Shown here one piece after another: positions 39,593 to 47,335 of a stretch of DNA of 64,000 bases. Positions within the stretch are counted from its first letter, which is position 1; every line of letters starts with the position of its first letter. The stretch is from Falsiroseomonas tokyonensis (lineage in GTDB: Bacteria > Pseudomonadota > Alphaproteobacteria > Acetobacterales > Acetobacteraceae). The DNA lies in assembly GCF_019024325.1 (NCBI RefSeq), contig NZ_JAFNJS010000008.1, positions 1 through 64,000 on the forward strand, read 5' to 3'. The notes under the pieces are model-generated. The model was not told where the DNA came from. It saw only the letters and a program-made list of their open reading frames with translations, and did not search any database. The translations under genes were made by a program, and so were the position numbers.

Positions 39593-39777
39593 GCAGGGCC
39601 TCCTGCCCGGATGTGGCCAAGGGGGGTCAGGCCACCGAGGGCAAGCTGACTCAGGGAAGTTTACGCTTCGTTGCTGGTGTGAAGATGCGGCGTGGCGTCC
39701 CGGCGCAGGGCGCCGGCGGGGGGCTGCAGTTGCCAAGGGCGCGGCGGCGTGCCACGCAACCGCTGCCCCCACGGACC

Positions 39778-42700
39778 ATGCTGAATACCCCTATGTCCGA
39801 CCATCATATGTCCCATGGCCAGATGTTCGCCCCGCGCGTCCGCGCGGTGCTCGGCCCGACCAATACCGGCAAGACCCATCTGGCGATCACCCGCCTGCTG
39901 GCGCATGCCTCCGGCATCATCGGCTTCCCGCTGCGCCTGCTGGCGCGCGAGAACTACGACCGCATGGTCGCCGCCAAGGGGGAGAAGTACGTCGCCCTGA
40001 TCACCGGGGAGGAGAAGATCGTCCCCCCCGAGGCGCGCTGGTTCGCCTGCACCGTGGAAGCCATGCCGCTGGATCGCCGCGCCGAATTCGTCGCGGTGGA
40101 CGAGATCCAGCTCTGCGCCGATGCGGATCGCGGCCATATCTTCACGGATCGCCTGCTGCATGCGCGCGGCATGGTCGAGACCATGTTCCTGGGCGCCGAG
40201 ACCATCCGCCCGCTGCTGCAGCGCCTGGTGCCGCAGGCCGAGATCGAGACGCGGCCGCGCCTGTCGCAGCTGACCCATTCCGGGCCGGCCAAGCTGACAA
40301 AGCTGCCGCCGCGCAGCGCCGTCGTCGCCTTCAGCGCGGCCGAGGTCTATGCGATCGCGGAGGCCATTCGCCGGCGCCGCGGCGGCTGCGCCGTGGTGAT
40401 GGGGCGCATGTCGCCCCGCACGCGCAATGCCCAGGTCGCGCTGTACCAGAACCGCGAAGTGGACTTCCTGGTCGCGACCGATGCCATCGGCATGGGCCTG
40501 AACATGGATGTCGACCACATCGCCTTCGCCGACCTGCAGAAATTCGACGGCCACCAGATCCGCGCGCTGAACGCGCAGGAGGCCGCGCAGATCGCCGGCC
40601 GCGCCGGCCGCGGCATGCGCGACGGCACCTTCGGCACCACCGCCGAATGCCCGGCTCTGCCGGAGGAGCTGGCCCGCCAGATCGAAGGCCATGCCTTCGA
40701 GCCACTGACGCAAATCGCCTGGCGCAATTCGGACCTGGATTTCGCCAGCATCGACGGGCTGCTGGACAGCCTGGCCGCCGCGCCGCCCACGCCGGGCCTC
40801 GCCAAGGGCAATGACGCGGTCGACCACATCACGCTGAACGCGCTGTCCCGCGAATCCGAGATCCGTGAGCTGGCCCGCGGCCGCGCCCGCGTGCGGCTGC
40901 TCTGGGAAGCCTGCCAGGTGCCGGATTTCCGCAAGATCGCCGACGACAGCCACACCCGCCTCTGTGCCAAGATCTTCGGGCATCTGGCGACGGATGGCCG
41001 GCTGCCCGGCGACTGGGTGGCGGGCAACATCGCCTCCCTCGGCAATGTCGAAGGCGACCTCGACACGCTGATGGCGCGGCTGGCCACCATCCGCATCTGG
41101 TCCTACATCGCCGCCCGCGCCGATTGGATCGCCGACGCCGCGACCCAGCAGGCGGAGGCCCGCAAGGCCGAGGAAGCCGTCTCCGACGCGCTGCATGAGC
41201 GCCTGATCGCCCGTTTCGTCGACCGCCGCGCCGCGCATCTGATCCGACGGCTCGATGACACGGAGGAGACGCTGCTCTCCGCCGTCACCCGCCAGGGCGA
41301 GGTGGTGGTCGAGGGCCATACGGTCGGCCGCGTCACCGGCTTCCACTTCCAGCCGGACCCCGAGGCGACGAAGGAGGAAGACAAGCGCCTGGTGCTGCGC
41401 GCCGCGCGCCGCGCGCTGCGGGAGGAAATCCCGCGCCGCCTGGCCGCGCTGGAGACCGCGAAGGACGAGGCCTTCACCCTGACCCCGCAGCATCGCGTGG
41501 TCTGGGACACGGCGGAAATCGCCCGCCTGCGCCCGGGGCCGGAGCCGCTGAAGCCGCATGTCGACGTCATCGCCACCGAATTCCTGGATAACGCCCAGCG
41601 CGAGCGGGTGCGGGTGCGCCTGGCCGCCTGGCTGGATTCGCTGGTCAAGCGCGAGCTGGGCGGGCTGGAGGCGATCGAGGCCAAGGCGGCCGAGGACAAT
41701 ACCCTGCGCGGCCCCGCCTTCCGCCTGCGGGAGGCCATGGGCCTCGCCCCCGGCGCGACCGAACGGGAAATCCCGGCCGAGCTGCGGGCGCGGCTGAAGA
41801 CCATCGGCATCCGCGCCGGGCGCTACGCCATGTACCTGCCGGACGTGCTGAAGCCCCGCGCCATGGGGCTGCGCGCCCAGCTCTGGGCGCTGCGCCGGAA
41901 CATCCCGACGCCGCTGCTGCCGAACCCCGGCCTGGTTTCCGTCACCCTGCCGGAAACGCCGCTGCCGGCGCCGGAGGATCCCAATACGCCGCGCGGGCCG
42001 GAAGGCTGGCCGCAAGGCTTCGCCGTGATGGCGGGCTGGCTGCCGGCCGGGCGCGTGCTGCTGCGGTTGGACGTGGCGGAACGCATCGCCGGCGAGCTGG
42101 GCTACCTGACCCGCCGCGCCCCGGCACCGGTGCCGGATGGCCTGGCGTCTCGCCTTGGCGTGAAGGGCGAGACCCTGCCCATGGCGCTGGAGGCGATGGG
42201 TTTTCGCCTCATGCCCTCGCCGCCGCTCGAGGAAGGGCAGTTCGGCCCGCCCGTGCCGGCGCGCATCAGCGCGGTGCGGCAGGACCGCCCCGCCCAGCGC
42301 GGCCCGCGCCGCGACGGGCGCGGCGAGAGCCGTGGTGAGAATCGGGGCGAAAATCGGGGCGAAAACAGGGGCGAGCAGCCGCGTGGCCCGCGGCCCGAGC
42401 GTGGACCGCGCCCCGAAGGCCCCCGCCCGGTTTATTTCGGCCCGCCCATCCCGCCCGAACTGCGCCCGGCTCGCCCCGAAGGCCCGCGCACCGAGGGGCA
42501 ACGCCATGGCCCCCGCCAGGACGGGCCGCGCCGCGACGGGCCACGGCGCGAAAGGGTGGATCACGGCCCGCGCCGCGACTGGCGCGTGGATGGCCTGCCG
42601 CCCGGCGTCTCCCCGCCGCCGGAAGGCGGCGCCGAGGCACCGCGCCCCGAGCGCGGCGGCCAGGACCGGCCCCGCTTCGAGGGTCCGCGCCGCAACGGCC

Positions 42701-42948
42701 CGCCCGGCCCGCGCCCGGACGGCGCGCCGCAGGAAGGCCGCCGCGACGATCGCGGTCCGCCGCGCGGCCCGCGGCCCGGGGGAAACAACGGTGGCAAGCC
42801 GGGGGGTGGCGACCGCTTCCCGCGCCAGGATCGCGACCGCGACCGGGATCGCGGCGGGGACCGGGGTGCGCCGCGCGAATGGTCCTCCGGCCCCAAGCCG
42901 GAATCGCCCTTCGCCGTCCTCGCCCAGCTGAAGCTGCGCAAGGACTGA
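39778..42948 (+). CDS. SUV3-like DEAD/DExH RNA helicase with RG-rich tail
   Basis: A 1056-residue helicase related to mitochondrial SUV3. Walker A is GPTNTGKT (residues 26-33), the DExH-type motif is DEIQ (108-111), and the second RecA domain has VATDAIGMGLNMDVDHIAF and QIAGRAGRG. The middle region (about 330-800) is helical. Residues 830-1056 are a disordered tail dense in R, G, P and D with serial RGEN units, probably for RNA or protein contact. ATG 39778 is preferred, with MSDHH at 39793 as an alternative. It runs straight into the S4-protein gene 4 bp downstream, suggesting a joint RNA-metabolism role. Confidence 0.88.
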   Translation: MLNTPMSDHHMSHGQMFAPRVRAVLGPTNTGKTHLAITRLLAHASGIIGFPLRLLARENYDRMVAAKGEKYVALITGEEKIVPPEARWFACTVEAMPLDRRAEFVAVDEIQLCADADRGHIFTDRLLHARGMVETMFLGAETIRPLLQRLVPQAEIETRPRLSQLTHSGPAKLTKLPPRSAVVAFSAAEVYAIAEAIRRRRGGCAVVMGRMSPRTRNAQVALYQNREVDFLVATDAIGMGLNMDVDHIAFADLQKFDGHQIRALNAQEAAQIAGRAGRGMRDGTFGTTAECPALPEELARQIEGHAFEPLTQIAWRNSDLDFASIDGLLDSLAAAPPTPGLAKGNDAVDHITLNALSRESEIRELARGRARVRLLWEACQVPDFRKIADDSHTRLCAKIFGHLATDGRLPGDWVAGNIASLGNVEGDLDTLMARLATIRIWSYIAARADWIADAATQQAEARKAEEAVSDALHERLIARFVDRRAAHLIRRLDDTEETLLSAVTRQGEVVVEGHTVGRVTGFHFQPDPEATKEEDKRLVLRAARRALREEIPRRLAALETAKDEAFTLTPQHRVVWDTAEIARLRPGPEPLKPHVDVIATEFLDNAQRERVRVRLAAWLDSLVKRELGGLEAIEAKAAEDNTLRGPAFRLREAMGLAPGATEREIPAELRARLKTIGIRAGRYAMYLPDVLKPRAMGLRAQLWALRRNIPTPLLPNPGLVSVTLPETPLPAPEDPNTPRGPEGWPQGFAVMAGWLPAGRVLLRLDVAERIAGELGYLTRRAPAPVPDGLASRLGVKGETLPMALEAMGFRLMPSPPLEEGQFGPPVPARISAVRQDRPAQRGPRRDGRGESRGENRGENRGENRGEQPRGPRPERGPRPEGPRPVYFGPPIPPELRPARPEGPRTEGQRHGPRQDGPRRDGPRRERVDHGPRRDWRVDGLPPGVSPPPEGGAEAPRPERGGQDRPRFEGPRRNGPPGPRPDGAPQEGRRDDRGPPRGPRPGGNNGGKPGGGDRFPRQDRDRDRDRGGDRGAPREWSSGPKPESPFAVLAQLKLRKD
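42320..42385 (+). repeat. Tandem RGEN-coding repeat in the helicase tail
   Basis: About five 12-bp units (GGCGAAAATCGG type) encode R-G-E-S/N/Q tetrapeptides in the disordered tail of the helicase. Confidence 0.55.
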
Positions 42949-44801: not shown

Positions 44802-45719
44802 ATGCCGCATCTGACTCCCCATCTGGCGCCCCATCTGCGGCGGCTGGAGGCCGAGGCCATCGGCATCCTCCGCGAAACCGCGGCCAGCTTCCGCAACCCG
44901 GTCCTGCTCTATTCCATCGGCAAGGACAGCTCCGTCGTCCTGCAGCTGGCGATGAAGGCCTTCGCCCCAGGCAAGCCGCCCTTCCGCCTGCTGCACATCG
45001 CCACCGGCTGGGATTTCCGGGCGATGCTGGAGTTCCGGGATCGCCGCATGGCGGAACTCGGCCTCGACTGCATCGTCCATACCAATCCGGACGGCCTAGC
45101 CCGCGGCATTGGGCCCCTCACCCATGGCTCGCAGCTGCACATGTCGGTCATGGGCACCGAGGCCTTGAAGCAGGCGCTCGACGCGCATGGCTTCGACGCG
45201 GCCATCGGCGGCGCCCGGCGGGACGAGGAAAAGGCCCGCGCCAAGGAACGCGTCTTCTCCTTCCGCGCGCCAGGCCATGTCTGGGACCCGCGTGGCCAGC
45301 GGCCAGAATTGTGGGGCCTCTACAACACGCGCATCAACCAGGGCGAGGGCATGCGCGTCTTCCCCCTGTCCAACTGGACCGAATTCGACGTCTGGGACTA
45401 TATCGCAGCCGAATCGATCCCTGTTGTGCCGCTGTATTTCGCCGCCCCCCGGCCGATGGTGCGCCGCAGCGGCGCCCTCATCATGCGCGACGACGACCGG
45501 ATGCCGCTGGAACCCGGCGAGGTCGAGGAAACCCTCTGGGTCCGCTTCCGCACCATGGGCGACTGGCCGCTGACCGGCGCGCATGAAAGCCGCGCCGAAA
45601 CGCTCGACCAGGTGCTGGCCGAAATCCGCGACAGCCGCACCAGCGAACGCCAGGGCCGCCTGATCGACACCGACCAGGAGGCGTCGATGGAACGCAAGAA
45701 GAAAGAGGGATATTTTTAG
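44802..45719 (+). CDS. cysD: Sulfate adenylyltransferase subunit 2
   Basis: A complete 305-residue CysD, the catalytic subunit of ATP sulfurylase in sulfate assimilation. The PP-loop SIGKDSS lies at 38-44, [12 protein letters not shown] and [21 protein letters not shown] follow, and the end [11 protein letters not shown] matches the usual CysD terminus. Normally cysN or cysNC, encoding the GTPase partner, follows directly. Here a foreign-looking gene follows after 25 bp. The last codons (AAGAAAGAGGGATATTTT) are markedly AT-richer than the rest of the gene, as if the 3' end had been joined to the incoming DNA. Confidence 0.94.
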
Positions 45720-45744
45720 AGTTTGCGATCTTTAGGAGGTTAAG

Positions 45745-46779
45745 GTGCCGAGCGATTATACCGTTGCGAGGATACGTGGCCGCCTTCATCTCAGCGAACT
45801 TATTGCCCTGAACGATTTCATATGGTCAGCGAATACACCTAAAGTGCTTATCGATTTCGACGGATACAGCCACTCGTCGATATTTGATCTAACGTTTCTT
45901 GCCCACCAAATAAAAGCAATTCAGCTAAAGAAAAAAATTCGAGTTGAGTCTATTAACGACGATCACATGTCGTGGGCGCGCGGCATGAACTTCTTCTCTG
46001 TCAGTGGAACCGACTGGGCCTCCCAGGTTTCTGCGAACCGCGGTGACGGGCATAATTTCATACCCATCACCATTATTGAGTGCGGCAAAAGCGGCTCAGC
46101 CTTATCCCGCACAGAAATGAACGAGGAAATCGACAGGCACGCCTCGAAGCTTGCGAAGGTACTGCTGCACCTCGGCTCGGGCCCGACCTACGACACAATC
46201 CAGTATACTTTTCGTGAGGTGATACGTAACATATTTGAGCATAGTGGCGCGAAGACTTTTTTGATGTCTGGCCAGTACTACCCGAGCCATGGCAACGTTC
46301 AAATTGTTATAGCGGATACGGGCCTCGGCATACCTAATTCACTTCGCTTTAACAAATCCTTTAAAAATCTGTCGGATCGCGATGCACTCCAGATCGCCCT
46401 AATGCCGGGCGTTTCAGGCAACGCGAGCGCCATGCGTCGGGAACGGACGGATATCTGGCAGAATTCTGGCTATGGACTCTACATGATGACAAGACTTGCC
46501 CGGAATCGCGGAATGATGACGGTGATTAGCGGCAATAATGTCATTCACATAAACAATAGCGACGACGCGCGACCCGCAAAAGAGAACTTCACCATCTCTA
46601 ATTTCTCGGGGACACTTATTCGCCTAGGCATCAAGATCGATGATATGGACCTCGCACCGAAGCTGCAGGAGTGGGCAGAGGAGGGCAAGATTATCGCTCG
46701 TGACATCGCCGGCGCGAAACAGTTGGACGCGAGCGCGGCATCGCTTCTTCTAAGGCGCGATTTTGAGAGAAATATGTAG
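45745..46779 (+). CDS. STAS-like plus GHKL ATPase protein, horizontally acquired
   Basis: A 344-residue protein starting with GTG, with a strong TAGGAGG site. Residues 1-85 look like a STAS-like alpha/beta fold (KVLIDFDGYSHSSIFDLTFLAHQIK). Residues 130-300 carry a Bergerat-fold ATP site: N-box EVIRN (158-162, within REVIRNIFEHSG), G1 box DTGLG (191-195) and G2 box NSGYG (240-244). There is no histidine-kinase dimerisation domain and no membrane segment. A STAS-plus-ATPase pairing is known from anti-sigma switches and from several defence-linked proteins. GC content and codon use differ sharply from all neighbours (many ATA, TTA and AAT codons), so transfer is likely. Exact function unknown. 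Confidence 0.8.
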   Translation: MPSDYTVARIRGRLHLSELIALNDFIWSANTPKVLIDFDGYSHSSIFDLTFLAHQIKAIQLKKKIRVESINDDHMSWARGMNFFSVSGTDWASQVSANRGDGHNFIPITIIECGKSGSALSRTEMNEEIDRHASKLAKVLLHLGSGPTYDTIQYTFREVIRNIFEHSGAKTFLMSGQYYPSHGNVQIVIADTGLGIPNSLRFNKSFKNLSDRDALQIALMPGVSGNASAMRRERTDIWQNSGYGLYMMTRLARNRGMMTVISGNNVIHINNSDDARPAKENFTISNFSGTLIRLGIKIDDMDLAPKLQEWAEEGKIIARDIAGAKQLDASAASLLLRRDFERNM

Positions 46780-46798
46780 CCGCAATTCGCCTGACGGA

Positions 46799-47335
46799 TC
46801 AGCTCAGCTCGTACTCCACCTCCGGCACGTAATGCGCCGCCTCCTTGCCGAGGTAGGAGGAGAAGAGCACGAAATTATCGATCGGCACCGGCGGCGACCG
46901 GAACAGGCTGTGGGCGTGGATGAAGCCGATCAGCTTGTGCGTCTCCGCCTTGTCGGTCCGTGCCAGGGTCACATGCGGCGCGAAGCGGCGGCGTTCCGGC
47001 TCCAGCCCCACGCGCTGCAGGGCCGTCTCCACCTTGGACTGCAGCCGGGTCAGCGCCTCGCTGCGCTCCGCCGTGATGTGGATGGACTGGATCCGCCCGC
47101 CCTTCTCGAAGGTGCCGATGCCCGCCAGCGCCAGTTCGAAGCGCGGGGCGCGGATGGCGGCCAGCGCCGCATCCACCTCCTCCGCCTGCCAGCTCTCGAT
47201 CTCGCCGATGAAGCGGAGCGTCAGGTGGTAGTTCTCCGGCGGCACCCAGCGGGCGCCGGGGATGCCGCCGGCCAGGGCGGCCAGCTGGGCCTTCACCTCG
47301 TCGGGCAGGGCCAGGGCGACGAAAAGGCGAATCAT
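46799..47335 (-). CDS. thpR: RNA 2',3'-cyclic phosphodiesterase (LigT family)
   Basis: A 178-residue 2H phosphoesterase. The two H-x-T-x motifs that give the family its name are present: HLTL at residues 37-40 and HVTL at about 120-123. The start MIRLFVALALPDEV is canonical. Such enzymes open 2',3'-cyclic phosphates on RNA ends. It is convergent with the AT-rich gene, 19 bp away, and returns to the GC-rich composition of the chromosome, marking the island's right limit. Confidence 0.93.
   Translation of the reverse strand: MIRLFVALALPDEVKAQLAALAGGIPGARWVPPENYHLTLRFIGEIESWQAEEVDAALAAIRAPRFELALAGIGTFEKGGRIQSIHITAERSEALTRLQSKVETALQRVGLEPERRRFAPHVTLARTDKAETHKLIGFIHAHSLFRSPPVPIDNFVLFSSYLGKEAAHYVPEVEYELS

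Follow-up and report, generated by a model that had tools for sequence, protein, structure and literature searches.

Relation of the kinase to CapK and VapK

The described systems closest to the gene considered here are CapKS and VapKSC, immune operons with STAS-GHKL kinases that were published in June 2026 as kinase-substrate pairs (PMC13373217). The kinases CapK and VapK are encoded together with a STAS substrate, CapS or VapS, and CapK phosphorylates the STAS protein encoded alongside it; capS comes directly after each of the 443 capK genes found by the authors. CapK has an N-terminal helix-turn-helix (HTH) domain and a groove for single-stranded DNA (ssDNA) predicted between its STAS and GHKL domains, with an ssDNA aromatic residue at W68 (F54 in VapK), and it responds to a DNA-damage or phage signal (PMC13373217). 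In the present study, a stretch of 64,000 nucleotides of Falsiroseomonas tokyonensis (contig NZ_JAFNJS010000008.1, positions 1 to 64,000), called the window below, was analysed with regard to a gene located between cysD and thpR (Table 1), whose product unites a STAS and a GHKL kinase domain. Sequence, structure prediction and comparison support its description as a mobile kinase that resembles CapK and VapK, stands alone and has a serine tail that is conserved; it very probably is a solo kinase of the CapK/VapK kind. For its trigger, target and benefit we infer the candidates discussed below.

An earlier reading of this DNA made from the sequence alone had proposed an undescribed system. This proposal could not be upheld, since the architecture and probable chemistry are already known from CapK and VapK (PMC13373217). 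A solo clade with a serine tail and no STAS partner was not found described in the literature searched, including the sections of PMC13373217 consulted.

VapK of VapKSC resembles the window protein in that its STAS domain precedes a GHKL kinase domain, and no HTH is named for it in the sections of PMC13373217 consulted. A search with a piece of VapS gave no match among plasmids and one among phages, the VapKSC-like comparison locus L129, which comes from an unverified, unannotated record; the VapS found there is a Pfam DUF4325 protein, and the VapK-like protein is homologous to the window kinase by profile comparison. However, VapK is encoded with VapS and the PIN protein VapC, whereas the window kinase is encoded alone. 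The VapK-like copy of L129 stops at residue 290; the tail of the window protein, in which two serines are conserved, is an addition to this. CapK shares the STAS and GHKL kinase architecture, but it has the HTH and capS behind it; the window gene has neither and is followed by the convergent thpR. In the predicted model of the window protein, the first STAS strand begins at residue 5, with no N-terminal HTH.

Domain architecture and fold

The sequence-only reading had recognised a STAS-like domain joined to a GHKL ATPase without HisKA, and the predicted structure and the fold search agree with it. No HisKA match was found in the window protein at E up to 1, which distinguishes it from two-component histidine kinases. 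Its Bergerat fold, as predicted, is closest to SpoIIAB: in the search of the PDB, Z ranks five SpoIIAB entries first, and the four listed SpoIIAB chains have query-normalised template modelling scores (TM-scores) of 0.28-0.33, compared with 0.21-0.26 for ranks 1-12. CapK and VapK are absent among the PDB matches listed, which carries no weight. The solved relatives by sequence are DesK-type histidine kinases (E 0.095-0.2), and the fold search of a viral library gave an unnamed protein at E 4.5e-8 as well as two phage proteins of the GHKL type and proteins similar to rIIA. Membership in a Pfam, NCBIfam or PADLOC family was rejected: only a sub-cut-off HATPase match was obtained, and none of the PADLOC 2.0.0 families matched the window protein at E up to 1.

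The residues E158 and N162, which correspond to catalytic positions of the SpoIIAB family, are conserved in the kinase family alignment. Both folds of the SpoIIAB/RsbW and SpoIIAA/RsbV pairs are present in the window protein as one chain. It differs from SpoIIAB/RsbW by the N-terminal STAS fusion and the extra tail, and its gene adjoins neither a sigma factor nor an anti-anti-sigma gene. It is highly improbable that the protein is an ATP-driven conformational machine of the MutL, Hsp90 or topoisomerase type instead of a kinase, considering that the TM-scores of ranks 1-12 lie below those of the SpoIIAB chains, that Z places SpoIIAB first and that fusion with a STAS domain belongs to the anti-sigma branch.

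The missing DUF4325 partner and the serine tail

Scanning contigs with the single protein found no relatives, and the alignment-based scan gave the best 80 of 132. For the solo set of 105 proteins, eight loci were dropped (duplicates, truncated or split), five distant ones were set apart, and 12 proteins from databases, including that of the window, were added. In the tail of this solo clade, S330 is conserved in 101/105, S333 in 99/105, G314 in 101/105 and L336 in 97/105 proteins, and the pattern [APSC]S..[ST].[MLISV][LIMVA] occurs within the last 45 residues of 91 of the 105. The same pattern was found in none of the 30 proteins of the contrast classes (0/6 and 0/13 partner-linked kinases, 0/11 DUF4325 fusions). 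In the predicted model of the window protein, the predicted local distance difference test (pLDDT) value is below 50 at residues 329-334 and 336-344.

No DUF4325 match was obtained in 15 same-genus genomes, including the window genome, while 3/14 control genomes were positive. As far as the contigs extend, a DUF4325 open reading frame (ORF) lies near the kinase in just 5/106 family loci, all of the distant class (L024, a weak match, L025, L126, L127 and L128). In a sample of 398 genomes of the phylum, DUF4325 was found at 30 places in 28 genomes; 13 of these places adjoin a kinase ORF, 11 are fused to one, and for 6 no kinase was found. The family profile matched 22 of the 398 genomes, with strong solo-type matches in the window's own genome, G340, G391, G171 and G261 (in pieces on two contigs), none of which belongs to the 28 genomes with DUF4325.

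The 11 fusions carry a C-terminal DUF4325 domain and a GHKL domain in one ORF (L132, L134, L135, L141, L142, L143, L144, L146, L150, L152, L159); such a fusion, with a substrate-type domain in cis, is not described in the sections of PMC13373217 consulted. As in the window kinase, their GHKL domain is matched by the family profile. Five of them, 399-523 aa long, have room for an N-terminal STAS domain; the other six have 334-352 aa. The DUF4325 STAS domain stands where the solo clade has its short serine tail, and the tail is therefore proposed as a phosphate acceptor, a tentative and somewhat unlikely assignment.

A rather unlikely alternative is that the window protein acts in trans, phosphorylating a host STAS protein or gripping a sigma factor encoded elsewhere, as SpoIIAB and RsbW do, with the tail as a docking element. 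It would agree with SpoIIAB being the best structural match and with the conservation of E158 and N162 at catalytic positions of that family. Moreover, the substrate of CapK is a separate STAS protein (PMC13373217). However, the DUF4325 gene was not found in the window genome, the few loci having a DUF4325 ORF all belong to the distant class, and a promiscuous gene spread under nine phylum labels would need a substrate in each host.

Foreign origin of the gene

The cysD-thpR junction is retained in six other same-genus genomes. Five of them (G002, G012, G013, G005, G003) have only about 40-165 bp from the cysD stop to the last thpR codons, that is, a gene-free junction, and in the sixth (G001, locus L008) a gap of 786 bp contains a FitAB-type pair, consisting of an antitoxin similar to FitA and a PIN toxin. 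The kinase gene is foreign to its genome because five of six sister junctions are gene-free and the sixth carries this pair. Kinase homologues were found in 2/14 other same-genus genomes, G010 (56% identity) and G006 (29%), where they sit behind ubiG, a different housekeeping gene. Compared with each other, these copies are just 28-37% alike across the aligned parts, thus two different family members occupy one site. A vertically inherited housekeeping gene next to cysD is ruled out by the sister junctions. The claim of the sequence-only reading that a foreign single gene is involved is borne out by these results, and vertical conservation beside cysD, which it had named as contrary evidence, was not seen in the sister genomes.

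The composition points in the same direction. The kinase gene is AT-richer than its flanks in 90/95 family loci (median -7.8 points), and a GC fall of at least 5 points is observed in 67% of the 95 kinase loci versus 7% of 670 other ORFs; these counts and the box counts given below omit 11 of the 106 loci (five duplicates, five of the distant class and one split). The window copy probably arrived by single-gene acquisition. Its alignment to the empty junction of the nearest sister fails past the cysD stop and gave no precise position for the insertion border.

The gene could also be a passenger, a recently landed mobile gene without use to this host. Its patchy occurrence (matched in 3/15 same-genus genomes, its own included), its AT-richness and the fact that the commonest neighbour family is found in 9/106 loci are in accord with that. 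Nevertheless, the frame is open, the ribosome site is strong, every active-site residue is retained, and a family conserved across distant bacteria needs selection somewhere, so that this explanation appears very improbable.

The cysD-thpR junction is a small cargo site, occupied by the kinase in the window genome and by FitA/PIN in G001. The 3′ side of ubiG (L183-L197) is likewise a variable spot in the genus, where G010 has an RHH/ParE-like pair (the RHH match being below the cut-off and ParE assigned by eye) and G003 and G012 have a sequence read by eye as ParE/RelE-like. Toxin-antitoxin-type genes occur at both sites, and thus the kinase shares its sites with such cargo. This would suit an addiction-like module, in which a toxic kinase is restrained by its own STAS domain or tail and is kept by toxin-antitoxin logic. 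No separate antitoxin is present, and we consider such a module quite improbable.

Spread and mobility of the family

Plasmid copies of the kinase (L122-L124) and one copy from a phage record (L125) are of the solo type, and relatives were found on fifteen viral contigs; the kinase copies of Streptococcus phages are of the partner-linked class. The tree of 79 rows bears nine phylum labels, some of which stem from one metagenome bin each. These labels show clustering without being sorted: the tree needs 11 label changes, with a minimum of 8 and 15.9 for shuffles.

Among 17 chosen locus pairs, six match over the gene only, ten over flanks too, and one over the gene and two distant stretches. The clearest gene-only pair, from Saccharophagus (L059) and Nitrincola (L061), which belong to different families, has 94.3% identity over the gene and a 21 bp leader, and a Chlorobi bin (L083) has this gene-plus-leader unit in common with L059 at 82%. 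The gene-only identity of L059 and L061 is explained by the position of the L059 gene between integron recombination sites, a core GTTAGGC before it and an 84-nt attC overlapping its stop. It stands in a one-directional gene row behind the integron integrase IntI (L059 2110-3099). Thus, at least one family member is a cassette of a chromosomal integron, a unit of one gene with its own ribosome site. An attC-like site of 69 nt follows the stop in L039; it is less sure than that of L059, because without the limit on box mismatches such palindromes occur elsewhere in many loci.

A strict scan detected attC beside the kinase gene in 1/95 loci versus 0/1,900 control stretches, and a relaxed scan in 1/95 versus 1/1,410. 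The 3′ core box was found at 10/95 kinase loci versus 21/885 other ORFs, the 5′ core box at 7/95 versus 43/885, and both boxes at 4/95 versus 2/885. An integron integrase over the cut-off was present in 8/11 genomes, of which the ten besides the window's own had been chosen partly for cassette-like boxes or as kin of such genomes. Unlike integron cassettes, the window copy lacks an attC or core box, with 19 bp to thpR; RYYYAAC and GTTRRRY boxes were absent within the stretches scanned on either side of the gene, and no integron integrase over the cut-off was found in the window genome.

Neighbouring genes and the link to defence

A DEAD helicase gene overlaps or abuts the kinase gene in L060, L066, L075, L081 and L087. 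Four of these five loci group together in a supported clade, and in L087 (7258-12553) the DEAD helicase, the kinase and the exonuclease VII large subunit form an operon-like row. A CI/S24-type repressor precedes the kinase gene in L110 and an Mrr-type nuclease in L101; L032 and L122 have a HEPN/RES-like neighbour below the cut-off. This coupling to DNA-handling genes in a minority of loci would fit a DNA-damage or phage signal, by analogy with CapK.

For a comparison of near and far neighbours, ORFs were filtered by length and composition, and a script then sampled 110 of 223 near ones and 110 of 154 far ones (6.5 kb away). At E 1e-10, 146 PADLOC model families were matched near versus 105 far. 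The commonest near models (four members each) resemble one helicase set; the other matches included Argonaute-associated (2) and HmaC (1) models near, and mad3 (3), HmaA (2) and DrmD (2) far. Phage_integrase was found in 5/110 and Resolvase in 3/110 near ORFs, and neither reached 2/110 in the far ones; it is suggestive only that mobile genes are commoner near the kinase. The role of a defence protein assumed by the sequence-only reading stays plausible, but no PADLOC model matches the protein, and clear defence enrichment among the neighbours of its relatives is missing.

Several neighbourhoods recur on a small scale. In L044, L047 and L068 the kinase gene is wedged between AAA ATPase and DUF6638 genes with overlaps of 4-8 bp (assigned by Pfam on the L044 copies), and in L037 and L042 only the side with the DUF6638 gene was seen. 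In L045, L049, L050 and L051 the kinase is accompanied by a convergent gene (with a NOV_C domain in L049), and this unit is 96-99% identical in DNA across contigs of Cereibacter, Sinirhodobacter and Paracoccus.

Proposed mode of action

In the mechanism that we favour, the protein combines a regulatory STAS domain with a GHKL serine/threonine kinase domain of the SpoIIAB type, and the groove between them may sense ssDNA, or some comparable sign of damage or phage, and thereby turn the kinase on, by analogy with CapK. DNA damage or phage as the trigger is a guess with slightly less than even odds. In this clade, which has no adjoining STAS partner, the two-serine tail would take the phosphate, in cis or between two copies, and the phosphorylated tail might release or recruit a host target, with slower growth or blocked phage replication as the outcome. 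The gene would have reached the window genome as a single gene; among its relatives, at least one is carried as a cassette in an integron. To this reading as a whole, that of a horizontally acquired, stand-alone, signal-switched and tail-phosphorylating kinase of the CapK/VapK kind, we assign a probability of about 0.4.

A number of observations weigh against it. The tail pattern was drawn from the solo clade itself, and therefore only the contrast with other classes is informative; it is missing in 14 of the 105 members, and the tail might be a helix for docking or dimerisation. In the contrast set of 30, L126 and L128, with similar scores, probably represent a single protein, the DUF4325 neighbour of L024 is weak (E 0.0012), and the kinase profile gives only weak matches to the six short fusions, at E 5.8e-4 to 3.9e-8. 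The absence of DUF4325 from the window genome leaves aside STAS substrates outside DUF4325, which were not searched for there. The ssDNA aromatic cannot be placed for certain: the best guess, made without a direct alignment to the published residue, is column 43, which is His in the window protein, F/W/Y/H in only 65/105 of the solo clade and F or W in 6/6 partner-linked kinases. Comparison with ORFs 6.5 kb away gave no clear defence enrichment around the kinase genes, and 10 of the 17 compared pairs have flanking DNA in common too. Finally, unselected genomes with the kinase (10/50) do not have an integron integrase more often than the phylum sample (72/398), therefore the kinase family has no general integron link.

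A bolder form of the proposal, that of a one-gene immune switch in which a sensor groove, a kinase and a serine-tail substrate within 344 residues replaced the two- or three-gene CapKS and VapKSC circuits, is unlikely. Were it true, the switch would travel as a single gene, with integron cassettes among its vehicles, and would settle behind unrelated housekeeping genes across phyla. With the kinase retained, the partner absent and a serine tail conserved, this wide clade allows one to test, clearly and at little cost, how such switches can be wired. Since little recurs beside them, stress or immune switches made of one gene also seem easy to overlook. Integron cassettes have been reported to encode phage defence, and the chromosomal-integron member provides a candidate function for an otherwise unknown cassette.

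Features of the locus

The gene corresponds to its first description as a single AT-richer gene of about 1.0 kb with a strong ribosome site, 25 bp after cysD and 19 bp before thpR. It starts with GTG, five bases downstream of AGGAGG, and has a GC content of 50.5% versus 71.1% in the remaining window. The operon assumed in that description does not extend to thpR, which is convergent to the kinase gene and therefore shares no operon with it.

Table 1. Positions of the kinase gene, its flanks and the domains and motifs of its product in the window.
Feature	Position	Strand	Evidence or remark
Solo STAS-GHKL kinase gene	45745..46779	+	344 codons/344 aa
cysD, left-flank host gene	44802..45719	+	TIGR02039, 463 bits; matched in 14/15 same-genus genomes
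25-bp leader, approximate left insertion edge	45720..45744	+	Ribosome site AGGAGG at 45734-45739; sequence; empty-junction alignment
Right edge, 19 bp, too short for attC, no core box	46780..46798		Sequence; empty-junction alignment
thpR (RNA 2′,3′-cyclic phosphodiesterase), right-flank host gene, convergent	46799..47335	-	TIGR02258, 155.8 bits
N-terminal STAS domain, SpoIIAA-like, residues 2-91	45748..46017	+	Predicted structure
GHKL (Bergerat) kinase domain, SpoIIAB-like, residues 103-300	46051..46644	+	Predicted structure
N box, E158..N162..H166	46216-46242	+	Within kinase domain
G1 box, D191-G195	46315-46329	+	Within kinase domain
G2 box, N240-L245	46462-46479	+	Within kinase domain
C-terminal tail, residues 304-344	46654..46776	+	Near-invariant S330 (46732-46734) and S333 (46741-46743)

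Behind cysD, cysN is absent in the window genome and in the nearest sisters; the over-cut-off cysN match of this genome is on another contig (C12). Elsewhere in the window, positions 39613-42948 encode a Suv3-type helicase, whose long C-terminus is RG-rich and of low complexity.
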